A stretch of DNA of 64,000 bases, from NCBI RefSeq assembly GCF_008802355.1, contig NZ_VZRA01000007.1, positions 62,001-126,000 of the forward strand, written 5' to 3'. The notes beneath the pieces are model-generated. The model was not told the DNA's origin. It saw only the letters and a list, made by a program, of their open reading frames with translations, and ran no database searches. This DNA comes from Oryzomonas sagensis (lineage in GTDB: Bacteria; Desulfobacterota; Desulfuromonadia; Geobacterales; Pseudopelobacteraceae). Below, one piece after another: positions 7,121 to 17,278 of this stretch; the first letter of the stretch is position 1, and the number at the start of each line of letters is the position of its first letter. Made by a program: the position numbers and the translations under genes.

Positions 7121-8020
7121 TCAGGCCGCGCTGCGAATTTTTACGTTCCTGCCGCCGCTGCTCTTCATCCCCCATTTGACGACCGTGACCCGCTCAATCC
7201 GGTCGAAGATCAGATTCTCGACCGCGATGCCGATCAGGACAACAGTTATCAAACCGGCAAAAACCGAAGGAATCTCCAGCTGCTGTTTGTTCTCGTAGAT
7301 AAACCAGCCGATGCCGCCGCTCCCGGAACTGACGCCGAAGACCAGTTCCGCCGCGATAAGCGTCCGCCAGGCAAAGGCCCAGCCGTTGCGCAGACCGGTC
7401 AGAAGTGAGGGGAACGCCGCCGGTATCAGGATGACGGCGGCATAGCGGATGCCGCTGAGGCCGTAGTTGCGCCCCACCATGCGGATCGTCCCGTTGACCG
7501 CCGAGAATCCCCCGTGGGCGCTCAGCGCCACCGGCCAGAGAACCGCATGAATCAGAACAAAGATGATGCTCCCGCTGCCCAGGCCGAACCAGAGCAGGGC
7601 CAGCGGCAGGAGTGCGATGGCGGGCAACGGGTTGAACATGGAGGTGCAGAGTTCCAGGAGATCGGAGCCGAGTCGCGTCATTGTGGCGGCCATGGCCAGA
7701 ATCAGCGCCAGGAGCACCCCGATGCCGTATCCGGTCAAGAGTATTTTGAATGAGGTGACGATGCGGGCCGGCAGTCCGCCGCTTCTGACGGCATCGACCA
7801 GCGCCTGCAACGTGGCGCTGAAGGTCGGCACCATGAGCGGGTTCGCCAGCCGTGTCGCATACCATTCCCAGAGCGCGCAGAGCAGGATCAGAAGCCCCGC
7901 CCTCCGAACCCACCCTTTGTCCCACAACTGTGCCAGTATGCCGGGACCGGTGGAGGGACTCCCCTCGTGCATCACTGTTCCCCGCACGGTCATTCCTACC
8001 GCGGTACTATCTGTTTTCAT
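7121..8020 (-). CDS. ABC transporter permease, SsuC/TauC/NrtB family
   Basis: A 299-residue inner-membrane permease with about six hydrophobic segments and the cytoplasmic EAA-like loop that contacts the ATPase (residues including RTLIAAELVFGVSSGSGGIG). It belongs to the BPD_transp_1 group used for nitrate, sulfonate, taurine and pyrimidine precursors. The ATG at 8020 has GAGGAG seven bases upstream; the frame is open much further but runs into the ATPase gene. It is the last gene of the five-gene operon 7121-11682. Substrate cannot be told from the sequence. Confidence 0.88.
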   Translation of the reverse strand: MKTDSTAVGMTVRGTVMHEGSPSTGPGILAQLWDKGWVRRAGLLILLCALWEWYATRLANPLMVPTFSATLQALVDAVRSGGLPARIVTSFKILLTGYGIGVLLALILAMAATMTRLGSDLLELCTSMFNPLPAIALLPLALLWFGLGSGSIIFVLIHAVLWPVALSAHGGFSAVNGTIRMVGRNYGLSGIRYAAVILIPAAFPSLLTGLRNGWAFAWRTLIAAELVFGVSSGSGGIGWFIYENKQQLEIPSVFAGLITVVLIGIAVENLIFDRIERVTVVKWGMKSSGGRNVKIRSAA

Positions 8021-8058
8021 GGTGCGCTCCTCGTGATGTGCTGCGGCAACCAGGGACA

Positions 8059-8838
8059 TTAGATCACGTAATCCAGAGCGTCCCGAAACAAGACCTGCCT
8101 GATCCGCTCCGCAATTTCCGGGTGGGCCCCGGCGGCCGCCTGCAACTGCTCCGCCTCGATGATCTCCTCCACCCGCCCGGGGTGAGGGGACATCACCACG
8201 ATCCTGCTGCCGAGCAGCAGCGCCTCTTCGATGGAGTGGGTCACGAACAACATGGTGAACTGGCATTCGCTCCAGAGTTCCAGCAGCTCATCCTGCATCC
8301 GCCTGCGCGACAGGGCGTCCAGGGCGGCAAAGGGTTCGTCCATCAGGATAATCTCCGGCTTCATGGCCAGGCAGCGAGCAATGGCCACCCGCTGTTTCAT
8401 CCCCCCCGACAGGGTATGGGGGTAGGCATCGGCGAATTGCTCCAGATGGACCGTCCTGATCGCCTCAAGGGCGCGTTCATGCGCCTCCCCCTTGGGCAGG
8501 GTGCGGCTGGCGAGCAGCCCGAAGGCCACGTTCTCCCGCACCGTTTTCCAGGGAAGCAGCTGATCGAATTCCTGGAACACCATCACCCGGTCCGGTCCGG
8601 GGCCCGCCACCAGTCTGCCGTTCAGGGTGATATTCCCCTCGCTGGGGGCAAGAAACCCGCCCACGGCCTTGAGAAGCGTCGATTTTCCGCACCCGGAGGG
8701 GCCCAGCAGCACTACCCGGTCGCCCCGGCTCACCTGGAATTCCACGTTATCGGTGGCGGTGACGATGCCGTTCTGGTCGCGGTAGCGCAGCGTGACCCCC
8801 TTGACGGACAGCAAAGGCGTATCCGCAACGTCAGCCAT
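8059..8838 (-). CDS. ABC transporter ATP-binding protein, SsuB/TauB/NrtD family
   Basis: A 259-residue ATPase subunit. It shows Walker A GPSGCGKS, the Q-loop in VMVFQEFDQLLPWKT, the signature LSGGMKQRVAIAR, Walker B IILMDEPFAALD and the switch His in FVTHSIEEA. This is the full set for an active ABC ATPase powering import through the neighbouring permease. It starts two bases downstream of the binding-protein gene's stop region and precedes the permease by 38 bases, so the three are one transcription unit. Confidence 0.93.
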   Translation of the reverse strand: MADVADTPLLSVKGVTLRYRDQNGIVTATDNVEFQVSRGDRVVLLGPSGCGKSTLLKAVGGFLAPSEGNITLNGRLVAGPGPDRVMVFQEFDQLLPWKTVRENVAFGLLASRTLPKGEAHERALEAIRTVHLEQFADAYPHTLSGGMKQRVAIARCLAMKPEIILMDEPFAALDALSRRRMQDELLELWSECQFTMLFVTHSIEEALLLGSRIVVMSPHPGRVEEIIEAEQLQAAAGAHPEIAERIRQVLFRDALDYVI

Positions 8839-8840
8839 GG

Positions 8841-9854
8841 TCAGCTCCCCTTTGTGGCGTGGACGTTGGGGAAGAACAGATCCTTCCAGTCCCTTGGCCT
8901 GCTCTTGATCGTCCCGGTATGGTACATGAAATCCGAAAACCTGGTGATATTGTGCGGTGTGACCGTATAGCTCACCGTCGGCTGGTTGATCTCCTTGAGC
9001 AGGTCATCCAGGCTTTCCTTGGTCTTGCTGGCCTCGCGGTAGATCTCCGCCGCGGCCCGCCTGTTCTTGTTGATGTAGGTGGTCGCCTCTTCCTGCGCCG
9101 CAAAGACCGCGGCATAGATCTTCGGGTTTTTGTCGTGGAAGGCTTTGGTGGTGGCGAAGACATTGAAGGTGTGCGGCCCGCCGAGGACCGTGTATGAGTT
9201 GAGCACCGTCCTGACCCGCTTGTCGTCCAGTTCCTGGAACATGAACGGCGGGCTGGTGAGATGGCCGGTGACCTCCGACTTGCCGGACAGGAGCGCCGCC
9301 ATGGCGTCAGGATGCTTCATGGTCACCGTCAGTTTGTCCAGTTTGGAAAAATTATTCTGGCCGAACTCCTTTGCCGCCGCCATTTGCAGGATGATAGCCT
9401 GGATCGAGACCTTCACCGCCGGCAGGGCGATACGGTCCTTGGCGGTGAAGTCCCGGATCGTTTTCACCGCCGGGTTGTTCGTATTCAGGTAGTTAGGCGA
9501 TGAAATCAGGGCCGAGACCCCTTTGACGGCGCCCTTGGACTTGTCCCAGAGCAGGATCATCGGCGCCACGCCCGAGGAGATGTAATCGACGCTCCCGGAG
9601 AGGAGCGCGTCATTGGTCGCGCTACCGCCCCCCAGGGTCGCCCAGGTGACTTTGATATCGCCGAGACCGGCCGCTTTGGCATGTTTTTCTATCAGATGCT
9701 GCTTTTCCATGATGATCAGCGGCAGGTAGCCAAGGCCGTACTGCTTGGCCAGCCGTACCTCCTTGACCTCGGCCGCGGCATTGAACGGCACGGCAGCGAG
9801 GCCGACGAGCGCCAGCGCCGTGATGGCGACGAATGTGTACATGCTCTTTCCCAT
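8841..9854 (-). CDS. ABC transporter substrate-binding protein, NMT1/SsuA-like
   Basis: A 337-residue periplasmic protein with a signal peptide (basic start, hydrophobic VAITALALVGLA, then FNAAA). It has the NMT1/SsuA fold features: early VRLAKQYGLGYLPLIIMEK, a GGGSATNDALLSGSVD stretch forming the ligand loop, and VTGHLTSPPFMFQEL. Such proteins bind nitrate, alkanesulfonates, taurine, aromatic acids or thiamine pyrimidine precursors; the ligand here is unknown. It follows the flavin-protein gene by 73 bases and feeds the permease and ATPase next to it. Confidence 0.9.
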   Translation of the reverse strand: MGKSMYTFVAITALALVGLAAVPFNAAAEVKEVRLAKQYGLGYLPLIIMEKQHLIEKHAKAAGLGDIKVTWATLGGGSATNDALLSGSVDYISSGVAPMILLWDKSKGAVKGVSALISSPNYLNTNNPAVKTIRDFTAKDRIALPAVKVSIQAIILQMAAAKEFGQNNFSKLDKLTVTMKHPDAMAALLSGKSEVTGHLTSPPFMFQELDDKRVRTVLNSYTVLGGPHTFNVFATTKAFHDKNPKIYAAVFAAQEEATTYINKNRRAAAEIYREASKTKESLDDLLKEINQPTVSYTVTPHNITRFSDFMYHTGTIKSRPRDWKDLFFPNVHATKGS

Positions 9855-9927: not shown

Positions 9928-10410
9928 TTACGGTGTATCGGCATGCCGTACCGCCAGGCGGTCCAGATGCAGATGAAACGGATGCAGCGCCTCTTCCCGC
10001 TCCTTGCGCACGGCATAGGTTTCATCGCGGATCTGCTCCGGCTCGATCAACCAGACCGCCGCCAGGTCTGCATCGCCCAACCGGGCGCGGACCTCGCGAT
10101 AATACTCGCTGAACAGCGGGCCCGAAACGAGCGCCTTGTACGTTCGCCCCGTCGTGACCAGCACCCGGTTATCGCTGCCTGCCACGGTGACGGACACCGG
10201 GCGTTCGAACCAGATGCTGCGCAGCAGGTTGCGGTGGGTTGCTGATGTTTCCAGAAGTTCGAGATGCACCAGACGCCCGTCGGCGTCGAGCCGGAGAAAA
10301 GGGCTCGGCACGCTGACGGGTGCGCCGTTTTCATCCAGGGTGGCGATGCTGGCGACGGTGGCGGGTTCTTTCAGCAGCGATCCGATTGCGTTCCGTAAAT
10401 CTTCAGACAT
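9928..10410 (-). CDS. Pyridoxamine-5'-phosphate-oxidase-like flavin split-barrel protein
   Basis: A 160-residue protein of the FMN-binding split-barrel superfamily. Residues 16-110 include the strand pattern ATVASIATLDENGAPVSVPS, then LLRSIWFERPVSVTVAG and a GRTYKALVSGPLFS stretch where other members contact FMN phosphate. Many such proteins are flavin- or haem-binding oxidoreductases; substrate specificity cannot be inferred. It sits three bases after the radical SAM gene, so the two are surely co-transcribed and probably act on the imported compound (inference). Confidence 0.8.
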   Translation of the reverse strand: MSEDLRNAIGSLLKEPATVASIATLDENGAPVSVPSPFLRLDADGRLVHLELLETSATHRNLLRSIWFERPVSVTVAGSDNRVLVTTGRTYKALVSGPLFSEYYREVRARLGDADLAAVWLIEPEQIRDETYAVRKEREEALHPFHLHLDRLAVRHADTP

Positions 10411-10413
10411 GGT

Positions 10414-11682
10414 TTATTCCTCCCACAGCGGCAACAGCCGGGACAGATCGGTGTCGGGATGATTGCCGCAGTTGCGGTAGCTGTCATGTTCGATGGGGAG
10501 CCGGTATTTCACCCGCAGGGCGTGCAGGCCACGGGCCAGGCGGATGTAATAGTCCAGCGAGGCGTTTTTGTAAGCGCCCAGCGCCGTATCCGGCCGGGGC
10601 GACCAGACGATGAGCACCGTGCTCACCCCCTGCCGGGCCAGATCCTCGGCTTCGGCCAGGGTCCGCTCCAGGGCCTCGTCCTCACTGCGAAATCCGTGGG
10701 GACCAGCCAGTTCGATGCCCGCCACCAGGCCGGTGTTCACCCTGCCCGGCCCGAATATCTCCACCGCATCCACCAGCCGCTTTTTCCACTCGCGATACCC
10801 GATCCATTCCGCTTTGCCGGGGCAATGTTGGTTGAACAGCTCCTCGTTCAGCACCTCGATGTCGGAGGTGTAGCTGGTCAGGCCGGTTTCGGCATAGAGC
10901 CTCTTCAACTGCTCCTTCTCGAACGCCGTTCCGATCAACTGGCTGGGAAACTTTGGGGTGCGGAAATTTTTGCCGACCTCTTTCAGGATGGCGATATAGT
11001 AGTCGATCTCGTCATCAAAGGGGCGCGACCCGCCGATGATGGAGCCGGAGGTCAGGAAGACCGTCGAAAACCGCCCCTCCTCCTTCAGCGCCTCGCCGAT
11101 CACCGCCCCCACCTCGACCGGATCGAGCCGTGCCGGGATCTTGAGCTCCTTGCTCCCTTTTTTCAGTTGGGTGACGATGTCACAGAAGGCGCACCCCTTG
11201 CCGTTGTTCCAAAAGGTGCAATAGCGGTACGGAAAGATGTTCAACCGCTGGGGGCGGGCGCTGACGATATTCTTCATCGGCACGCCCGAGCTGCTGTCTT
11301 TGCCATAAAATGCCGGGGCGGGCCAGTAATCCACCTCTTCCAGCGCCACCCCCGCATCGAACAGCCAGGGCCGGCCGTCGCGCAGATCGACAACATAGGG
11401 GTTCTCTTCCAGCGGCGTCGGCGTCGTGATGATCGAGGTGCCATCCCGCAGGAGCAGCGATTCCGGCCGGAGGGCGATAACCCCGTCGCGGGCGCCGAAG
11501 ATGTGGGTCCCGGTGGTCTGGTGCTTTTCCGGATCGAGATAGGAGACCGCCTCTTCGGTGTAGTGCACCCCCCGACGCTGCACATCGGTCTTGAGGATAA
11601 TCAGGCGCGGTACGTCCGGGTAGCGGCGAACGGCATCCTCCAGGGGCGTCCCAGGAAATTTTCTTGCCAGGGCAAGAGTCAT
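10414..11682 (-). CDS. Radical SAM protein with unusual C-X8-C-X2-C motif
   Basis: A 422-residue protein. Residues 1-145 are an N-terminal domain I do not recognise. Residues 150-350 resemble a radical SAM TIM barrel, with cysteines at about 155, 164 and 167 in YCTFWNNGKGCAFCDI. The spacing C-X8-C-X2-C differs from the canonical C-X3-C-X2-C. The following FLTSGSIIGG matches the SAM-binding strand position, and LTSYTSDIEVLNEELF and GLVAGIELAGPHG match later barrel strands. It is therefore probably a 4Fe-4S/SAM enzyme with an unknown reaction. The ATG has AAGGAG seven bases upstream. It is the first gene of the operon and directly follows the structured leader. Confidence 0.8.
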   Translation of the reverse strand: MTLALARKFPGTPLEDAVRRYPDVPRLIILKTDVQRRGVHYTEEAVSYLDPEKHQTTGTHIFGARDGVIALRPESLLLRDGTSIITTPTPLEENPYVVDLRDGRPWLFDAGVALEEVDYWPAPAFYGKDSSSGVPMKNIVSARPQRLNIFPYRYCTFWNNGKGCAFCDIVTQLKKGSKELKIPARLDPVEVGAVIGEALKEEGRFSTVFLTSGSIIGGSRPFDDEIDYYIAILKEVGKNFRTPKFPSQLIGTAFEKEQLKRLYAETGLTSYTSDIEVLNEELFNQHCPGKAEWIGYREWKKRLVDAVEIFGPGRVNTGLVAGIELAGPHGFRSEDEALERTLAEAEDLARQGVSTVLIVWSPRPDTALGAYKNASLDYYIRLARGLHALRVKYRLPIEHDSYRNCGNHPDTDLSRLLPLWEE

Positions 11683-11846
11683 GACATCACTCCTTTCTCG
11701 TCAAACGGTCACCAGTGGATACAACAAAAAAAGAGGTCAAGGAGAGAGCGCGCTTCGCTCGTTCCTTGGCCTCCAGTTTTTCTGGTCAGTCGTTGGAATA
11801 CTGCTGTGTGATCCTGGGGACATTCCCCGGTATCATCACATGTAAT
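11683..11846 (-). ncRNA. Structured 5' leader, candidate riboswitch or attenuator
   Basis: The predicted transcript of about 165 bases ahead of the radical SAM gene holds three hairpins: 11807-11840 (six-pair TGTGAT/ATCACA stem, asymmetric internal loop, then GGGG/CCCC), a small CCAG-AAAAA-CTGG hairpin near 11772-11784, and a strong terminator hairpin followed by seven U. Having a terminator inside a leader driven by its own promoter is the usual architecture of transcriptional riboswitches. I could not match it to TPP, FMN, cobalamin, SAM-I, c-di-GMP or fluoride consensus sequences from memory. Confidence 0.55.
11726..11773 (-). terminator. Intrinsic terminator within the radical SAM operon leader
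   Basis: On the minus strand, GAGGCCAAGGA pairs with TCCTTGACCTC (one mismatch) around an inner GAGCG/CGCTC stem, followed directly by seven T. It lies about 45 bases upstream of the start codon and downstream of a near-perfect promoter, so it should abort transcription unless an alternative fold forms. Confidence 0.8.
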
Positions 11847-11852
11847 GGGGAA

Positions 11853-11881
11853 AATCTAGCAAATCGGATACGGGGTGTCAA
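11853..11881 (-). promoter_or_regulatory. Strong sigma-70 promoter of the radical SAM/ABC operon
   Basis: Minus strand: TTGACA, 17 bases, TAGATT. The -35 is perfect and the spacer is ideal; start of transcription near 11846. The upstream flank (11882-11910) is very AT-rich, like an UP element. Confidence 0.82.
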
Positions 11882-12048
11882 TCAAATAATATAACTTCTA
11901 TAAATTTTATATACCACCAAGGACGACACCCCTCACAACCCGAAGGTCATGTGGAGCAGGGAGGCCTATTTACAGAGAACTTTCGCACTACCACGTCAGA
12001 ACCGTCGTCCCTGTCTTTAATCCATCCAGAACATGGACAAACAACACA

Positions 12049-17083: not shown

Positions 17084-17278
17084 GTTCTACTCCTTCATGA
17101 TGAATTTCGCCCGATCCATAAGGGGAGACAGGTCCTCATGGTTCTTGGCATTATGCCGTTTCACCCGTGTGCGCAGGAGTGGGGCTCCATGGCGGCGAAG
17201 CGGTACTGTCCGCATCCGTCGCCACATTCCGCACCCAGCCGCGTGGTGCAAACGGTGAAAGCAGGTTATGAAATCGCC

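Follow-up and report, generated by a model that had tools for sequence, protein, structure and literature searches.

A putative sulfur-regulon transcription attenuator in two bacterial phyla and DUF2292 as its candidate reader

What governs transcription of the operon that begins with a radical SAM gene at 10414..11682, minus strand, of the window (the whole stretch of Oryzomonas sagensis DNA analyzed here, 64,000 nucleotides)? The gene (variant_rSAM NF045502, with a weak match to TIGR04043) is followed on the same strand by a gene for a PPOX/pyridoxamine-oxidase-like small protein (9928..10410, below the Pfam cut-off) and by genes assigned by profile to an NMT1/SsuA-like substrate-binding protein (8841..9854, the SsuA family scoring below its cut-off), an ABC transporter ATPase of the taurine/nitrate/sulfonate type (8059..8838), and an SsuC/TauC-like permease (7121..8035). 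An earlier note had proposed a possible new riboswitch before the radical SAM gene, with a promoter, a two-part hairpin, a small CCAG/CTGG hairpin, and an intrinsic terminator. Of this proposal, regulated attenuation is retained on the evidence of covariation, and the two-part hairpin is given up as the sensor. Rather than being peculiar to this gene, the leader carries a copy of an element, termed R1, of a multigene sulfur regulon.

Architecture of the leader

The promoter-like site of the sigma-70 type, TTGACA-N17-TAGATT (11853..11881, minus strand), matches 10 of 12 positions, with TTGACA at 11881-11876, TAGATT at 11858-11853, and a spacer of 17. It is present as the earlier note described, but such sites are no more frequent than chance, one being found in the 2.5 kb region versus 1.4 expected in shuffles. 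The hairpins and terminator lie between this site and the ATG at 11682, and the leader (11847-11722) folds much better than its shuffles (z = -5.76; none of 200 as good).

The R1 element, consisting of an antiterminator hairpin, P2, and an intrinsic terminator, occupies 11729..11793 (minus strand). It has multicopy blastn matches in relatives and matches the covariance model described below at 69.4 bits, a match expected by construction, the window copy being one of the seeds. P2 contains a short outer stem, P2a, whose 5' strand A-C-U (11788..11790) faces 11769-11771; a conserved internal loop formed by G11787, A11786, and A11772; and the inner hairpin P2b, CCAG-AAAAA-CTGG (11773..11785), whose pairing is supported by covariation across copies and which corresponds to the small hairpin noted earlier. 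The terminator hairpin (11734..11772, with the 3' arm ending at 11734) was placed by the alignment of copies and by prefix folding. Its U tract of seven U (11726..11732) precedes the start codon, as had been claimed. A simple terminator scan does not list this terminator, which is visible in the folds and in a 44-copy alignment. The terminator 5' arm, AGGCC, has GGC in common with P2a, and because this strand belongs to both, the two structures are mutually exclusive. In the window, A11790 stands opposite C11769, an A·C mismatch of a type seen in 3 of 118 copies; with this mismatch, the window copy may be a weaker antiterminator.

The large, two-part hairpin does fold at 11805..11840, but its proposed role as a conserved sensor did not survive comparison. 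Against its 97% identical relative (L050 versus L051), substitutions break two of its predicted pairs and none is compensated (by eye, in two sequences), and its sequence was not seen by eye in the other R1 copies listed. The hairpin was rejected as an aptamer on these grounds; it is probably not conserved and, as far as these comparisons indicate, outside the switch.

The statement that no known consensus fits the leader was borne out. Rfam 15 gave no match above gathering threshold at R1 in the window, the leader alone, or sets of 8 and 20 loci, and no SAM riboswitch of any class was matched by covariance model in the same sequences. For the leader alone, at E-values up to 10, three matches fell far below their cut-offs (best 18.3 versus 64 bits); one of the three, to the patAB leader, covers the window terminator (15.5 versus 92 bits). 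Elsewhere in the window, Rfam recognizes an ordinary ribosomal protein leader, L20-Deltaproteobacteria, at 17090-17150 (minus strand, 56.6 bits).

Alternative folds and covariation of R1

A search of relatives with the leader DNA returned matches in 37 of 97 genomes, often several per genome and many only 21-26 nt long. Except in G114, from the same genus, they cover mostly the last part of the leader, CTGACCAGAAAAACTGGAGG, with or without the terminator. A consensus was drawn from 69 compared loci, and 44 copies were aligned (A1) after a false match in a coding region, L010, had been dropped from 45. The resulting model R1 comprises P2b and the terminator, with the P2a columns modeled as sequence only. 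Seeds were collected with a regular expression that required CC/GG and pairing within the terminator; those pairs were therefore selected, whereas the P2a and inner P2b pairs were not. Two larger sets were derived. Of the 150 rows of A2, 126 remained once two antisense images and all rows scoring under 28.8 bits had been taken out, and 119 after removal of duplicates. The 78 rows of A4 gave 65 Bacillota copies when the five seeds already used in A1 (L045/L046), duplicates, and two antisense images had been discarded.

P2 is about 25 nt long, with the consensus RYUGA-N4-(A-rich loop)-N4-AGGY. In the 119-copy set, the three base pairs of P2a (R-Y-U with G-G-Y) are formed in 117, 118, and 114 of 118 copies, with GC, AU, and GU types represented; sliding the strands by one to three columns leaves at most 63% paired. 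The Bacillota copies, which lie outside the seed, have 194 of 195 P2a pairs formed (at most 62% after slides of one or two columns) and more than one standard pair type at each P2b position. P2b consists of four covarying pairs, for example CCAG/CTGG, TTAG/CTAA, TCAG/CTGA, CCCG/CGGG, and CTGG/CCAG, and closes a loop that in the 119-copy set has 4-5 nt and is rich in A, mostly AAAAA or AAAA. The letters of the internal loop, G7 and A8 opposite A62, hardly vary: A8 and A62 are invariant in both sets, and G7 is present in 114 of 119 and 55 of 65 copies. Support for a fourth, outer pair is weak in the 119-copy set (76/118) and better in the Bacillota set (51/63). The covariation check named in the earlier note was thus run on the 119 copies and the 65 further ones from Bacillota, and the P2 pairs covary.

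In the smaller alignment of 44 copies, 96.3% of P2 cells are paired (at most 48% after slides), and the P2 covariation score of 0.237 was reached by none of 500 shuffles (0.168). Two stricter measures gave no excess in these 44 copies: doubly changed pairs numbered 3 versus 1.9 in shuffles (equalled by 93 of 500) and further pair types 8 versus 8.0 (equalled by 394 of 500). The terminator likewise shows no clear excess on them (54 and 154 of 500 shuffles).

The G-G-Y strand of P2 is the first part of the terminator 5' arm, and the overlap is visible in the variation itself. Changes at column 4 go together with changes at column 25 and at the terminator partner, the three reading G-C-G in 88 and A-T-A in 17 of 119 copies. 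Folding of growing prefixes of four copies forms P2 first, its outer stem being displaced once the distal arm of the terminator emerges. The leader contains a conserved antiterminator and a terminator that exclude each other, and R1 is very probably a regulated transcription attenuator, as judged from sequence and computed folds.

Two other roles for conserved parts of R1, T-box-like pairing with tRNA and use of the conserved GGAGG as a Shine-Dalgarno sequence, were set aside by eye, as the letters of the stem are free to vary and no start codon was seen at a fixed place. T-box leaders do resemble R1 in opposing an antiterminator to a terminator before amino-acid and cysteine genes, but they gave no Rfam match, and a Stem I would not fit before copies arranged in tandem. 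Such tandem copies precede one gene in L161 (105-221), L159 (8412-8543), L298 (15471-15578), and L202 (1501-1785), at a spacing of 9-23 nt in three of the four cases.

The regulon behind R1

Of 141 genomes in the window's order, which supplied most seeds, 90 contain R1 at E <= 0.01. Among 299 genomes from the phylum to which the Bacillota MAG L046 belongs, 34 contain it at E <= 1e-5, and two of the 34 (G141 and G142) hold seeds. Across a spread over the window's phylum it occurs in 13 of 395 genomes, 8 of them outside the order. The window's own genome has 11 matches at 10 places, a type of per-genome count that may include antisense images.

An open reading frame of at least 60 residues lies within 400 nt 3' of R1 in 116 of 119 copies. 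Grouped into BLAST clusters, of which only representatives were named by profile scan, these genes encode rhodanese (19), MetK (10; TIGR01034), window-type radical SAM proteins (8), Nitro_FeMo-Co domain proteins (8), DsrE2-like (7) and NifH-like (6) proteins, ABC ATPases (5), OAH sulfhydrylase (4), sulfate-binding (3) and SsuA-like (3) proteins, sulfite/nitrite-reductase-like (2), NifB-like (2), and Rrf2 (2) proteins, CysK (1), a MetQ-like protein (1), and others without a name. Cluster 2, with 9 copies, is a secreted protein without an assigned role; several other downstream products likewise lack one. In Bacillota, R1 precedes genes for cysK, metK, a metN-like protein, a sulfate-binding protein, and OAH sulfhydrylase, and also sat-like, cysC-like, and sulfonate-type transporter genes, along with some genes that have no evident tie to sulfur; these names were read by eye from translations, backed by BLAST clustering only, by which many of the genes are relatives of families in the first set. 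Copies in unrelated genomes therefore precede genes of sulfur uptake and assimilation, and R1 is, on this genomic evidence, an element of a sulfur regulon in two phyla.

Directly before genes of the radical SAM family, R1 occurs in 8 distinct copies. The terminator was expected in relatives of the operon, and this was confirmed in part: R1 is present somewhere in 12 of 19 loci encoding radical SAM relatives, several of them seeds of the model, and absent from 7, namely six Chlorobiaceae MAGs and one Treponema MAG. One contig (G120:C72, 53663-58306) carries four distant radical SAM paralogues in a row.

This set of genes invites comparison with the SAM riboswitches. Like SAM-I (S-box) and the other classes, R1 would attenuate methionine and SAM genes, but it has neither an aptamer domain nor an Rfam match, and its regulon differs in including sulfonate-type transport, rhodanese, DsrE, and radical SAM genes. 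In Geobacter and Desulfuromonas, S-boxes were reported to precede metIC and metX (PMC545781). Different motifs were reported upstream of metK, namely SAM/SAH and SAM-Chlorobi (PMC2864571), and in Geobacter, namely yjbM and nifV (PMC11109978).

Because the neighbors of R1 include NifH-, NifB-, and NifX-like proteins, nitrogen fixation under GnfR was the first idea. It was rejected, with ANTAR profiling against it (see below) and the Nif-like genes sitting among metK, sulfhydrylase, and sulfonate-type transport genes. The NifH- and NifB-like proteins may be parts of systems of the methylthio-alkane reductase type, which are named in PMC10418091.

Several loci stand somewhat apart. L154 and L155 (G012:C184 and C167) carry two metK genes, each behind an R1, in a genome with 4% contamination as a possible source. 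At L015 768-1148 (minus strand), a DUF2325 protein lies directly behind R1, and DUF2325 may belong to the regulon. In Bacillota, L195, L201, and L262 have R1-like elements before unnamed or sigma-factor-like genes that are not obviously related to sulfur, and may be other targets or false matches.

A further layer of control may act on DNA. In the window, the AT-rich box ATAGAAGTTATA (11890..11901, minus strand) lies 20 nt 5' of the -35 hexamer. The pattern ATAGA-N2-TTATA, drawn up after some of these leaders had been inspected, occurs in 24 of 116 R1 leaders, several from close relatives, versus 1.0% of shuffled upstream sequences. Its position is exactly 20 nt before TTGAC in 14 of the 24 and 20-22 nt in 17. 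The occurrence in 24 leaders, with 14 at one fixed distance, suggests a second, DNA-level control; the box is likely a transcription-factor site for part of the regulon, the predicted operator of a sulfur transcription factor.

DUF2292 and other candidate readers

Based on these data, a simple model would have R1 act in cis to attenuate the transcription of a regulon for sulfur limitation. In the nascent leader the small hairpin P2 would fold first; once the distal arm had been copied, the terminator would take GGY from P2, and transcription would end ahead of the radical SAM operon. When sulfur is limiting, a factor acting in trans would bind the internal loop and the A-rich loop and hold P2, the presumed ON state, so that polymerase reads through. 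That a factor stabilizes P2 is probable. The candidate favored here is DUF2292 (YezD), because in both phyla many genomes have yezD directly 5' of an R1; both its binding and the signal are inferred, and we consider this assignment a serious possibility that falls a little short of an even call. For the whole explanation, a sulfur attenuator whose P2 is read by DUF2292, the balance is about even.

DUF2292 (PF10055, about 55 residues; five proteins score 52-62 bits against a cut-off of 22) surfaced when the gene neighbors of R1 were compared between the two phyla. In the order it occurs in 64 of 141 genomes: 59 of the 69 that have R1 at E <= 1e-8, and 5 of the 72 that lack it. The Fisher test, uncorrected for kinship and confined to the window's order, gives p = 5e-23. 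Of the 45 genomes with at least three R1 matches, a count that may include antisense images, 42 have DUF2292. The family was also detected in the Bacillus subtilis control genome. A DUF2292 frame ends at most 300 nt before R1 in 29 of 172 copies (15 of 105 in the first set, 14 of 67 in Bacillota) as compared with 22 of 2000 positions drawn at random from those loci. Conversely, when 30 DUF2292 loci were fetched by family alone, 14 had a same-strand R1 at most about 80 nt behind and one more had it weakly. A blind plasmid search for DUF2292 gave five matches in four records, of which three regions were examined: in a Cytobacillus spongiae plasmid, yezD is followed in turn by an R1 (32.7 bits), cysH for PAPS reductase, a transporter of the phosphate type, and sat, and no R1 was found near DUF2292 in the Priestia megaterium and Novosphingobium plasmid regions.

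The same arrangement could be taken for a constitutive terminator that insulates the gene behind it, with no regulated read-through, as the terminator is strong and those 29 copies stand behind a DUF2292 gene. An insulator would not account for the covariation of P2, the nearly invariant internal loop, or the location of copies largely before sulfur genes, and we consider it very improbable. That translation might run on from a preceding DUF2292 frame into R1 was likewise dismissed as a general mechanism: no such frame is found within 300 nt before R1 in 143 of 172 copies, the window copy included.

The association has exceptions. DUF2292 is missing from 10 of the 69 R1-containing genomes of the order. 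In G008 (98% complete) it was found neither by the genome search nor by a profile run over the whole 139.5 kb contig C53, which holds at least six sense copies of R1, some in tandem. G118 (88% complete) has R1 copies, with no DUF2292 in the genome search or the scanned parts of contig C44. G007 (100% complete), where no DUF2292 was found and the 35 kb examined held a strong R1 and a weak one, is a weaker exception. Because of these genomes, either DUF2292 is not the universal reader or they have a reader that has diverged or escaped detection. The correlation may also reflect only co-membership in sulfur clusters that move together.

The exceptions G007, G008, and G118 lend some weight to another RNA-binding protein as reader of P2, with DUF2292 merely a fellow member of the regulon. 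The form of the hairpin would suit such a protein: P2 combines an internal loop with an A-rich loop a constant 4 bp away, a layout typical of hairpins that proteins bind. The remaining families common to the R1 loci of both phyla are mainly enzymes and transporters, together with a PPOX-like protein, a few unnamed proteins, an Rrf2-type regulator (11 and 1 loci), and a Nitro_FeMo-Co domain protein (6 and 5 loci). DUF2292 is enriched directly before R1, a property measured for this family only. A different reading protein is therefore judged unlikely.

The ten R1 genomes without DUF2292, and those with R1 but no ANTAR protein, are also what a very small metabolite riboswitch would predict, in which P2 itself binds a metabolite of sulfur status. 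Strong conservation of the internal and A-rich loops and the likeness of the regulon to those of SAM riboswitches (metK, metN-like, OAH sulfhydrylase) point the same way. P2 is, however, a simple hairpin of only about 25 nt with nothing conserved upstream by eye in the copies listed, and because tandem copies are only 9-23 nt apart, a larger aptamer would not fit; the linkage to DUF2292 would require a separate reason. We rate this riboswitch as rather doubtful. Were P2 its ON state, the ligand would have to be an inducer whose level goes up when sulfur is limiting, O-acetylserine being an example.

Known protein readers provide the closest parallels to the proposed reading of P2. The targets of ANTAR proteins (EutV, NasR, AmiR) are, like R1, small hairpins that overlap the terminator 5' arm in a multigene nutrient regulon. 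Geobacter GnfR, reported by Ueki and Lovley in 2010, is said to be an ANTAR protein that acts by antitermination in nitrogen fixation. Such a response regulator as the reader of R1 would find hosts enough, as 129 of the 141 genomes of the order encode ANTAR, as do 17 of the 21 Bacillota genomes with R1 that were examined (17/19 and 0/2), and predicted targets lie upstream of nitrogenase genes in Pelobacter carbinolicus (accessible part of PMC3369931). However, ANTAR is not associated with R1 in the order (84 of 90 genomes with R1 versus 45 of 51 without, p = 0.35), and PF03861 is absent from the R1 genomes G012, G074, G108, G061, G141, G142, G413, and G425, several of them incomplete; the first four of these have DUF2292. 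ANTAR target RNA consists of two hairpins with hexanucleotide loops bearing A at position 1 and G at position 4 (available parts of PMC3369931 and PMC8934654). In contrast, R1 has a tetra- or pentaloop rich in A, a GA/A internal loop, and the invariant A8 and A62; no hexaloop was found in the P2 fold, the only one considered, in 119 copies. The regulon of R1 is one of sulfur, not nitrogen, and R1 is present in genomes without ANTAR. An ANTAR reader is thus exceedingly unlikely.

The RAT hairpins of BglG/LicT, about 25-30 nt long and read by the CAT_RBD domain of about 55 residues, are also single hairpins with an internal loop overlapping a terminator. Their sequence differs from that of R1, and CAT_RBD (PF03123) was rejected as the reader, being present in 4 of 20 R1 genomes tested and in 0 of 9 from the window's order.

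DUF2292/YezD/OscA proteins are small proteins tied to sulfur genes, as they are at R1, and Pseudomonas oscA is needed for the use of organosulfur compounds. The predicted fold of DUF2292 is a helix and two strands, of low confidence (pLDDT 62, pTM 0.28); no solved structural relative was found, and no RNA-binding fold is recognizable in the model. The searchable literature, including the accessible part of PMC7921472, mentions no RNA role for the family. Neither R1 nor such a role is described in the accessible parts of PMC3369931, PMC8934654, PMC7962754, PMC11934962, PMC545781, PMC10418091, PMC11109978, PMC7921472, PMC2965389, PMC2864571, and PMC6429828. The attenuator is apparently undescribed, and its novelty is likely, though not certain.

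At the level of sequence, the alternative folds, the covariation, the sulfur regulon, and the linkage to DUF2292 are shown. R1 is a real, widespread, covarying sulfur-regulon attenuator, and its proposed reading by DUF2292 is the testable part. More broadly, and more tentatively, DUF2292 (YezD/OscA) would represent a new class of RNA-binding antiterminator that reads the 25-nt hairpin RRYUGA-N4-A-rich loop-N4-AGGYY and controls a sulfur-limitation regulon in Desulfuromonadales-type bacteria and Bacillota, with the window's radical SAM/ABC operon as a member and a predicted scavenger of organic sulfur. If correct, the model would establish an RNA switch that acts across a whole regulon in response to sulfur supply, in two phyla whose control is usually sought in S-boxes, T-boxes, and DNA-binding repressors. 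It would also provide a first function for DUF2292, a family with very little in searchable print, and bring uncharacterized genes such as the radical SAM operon into sulfur scavenging. A confirmed reader would make the small P2 a handy synthetic antitermination part.

In the window's phylum, L213 and L214 have a weak R1-like hairpin and an atypical terminator, with a DUF2292 gene close 5'.
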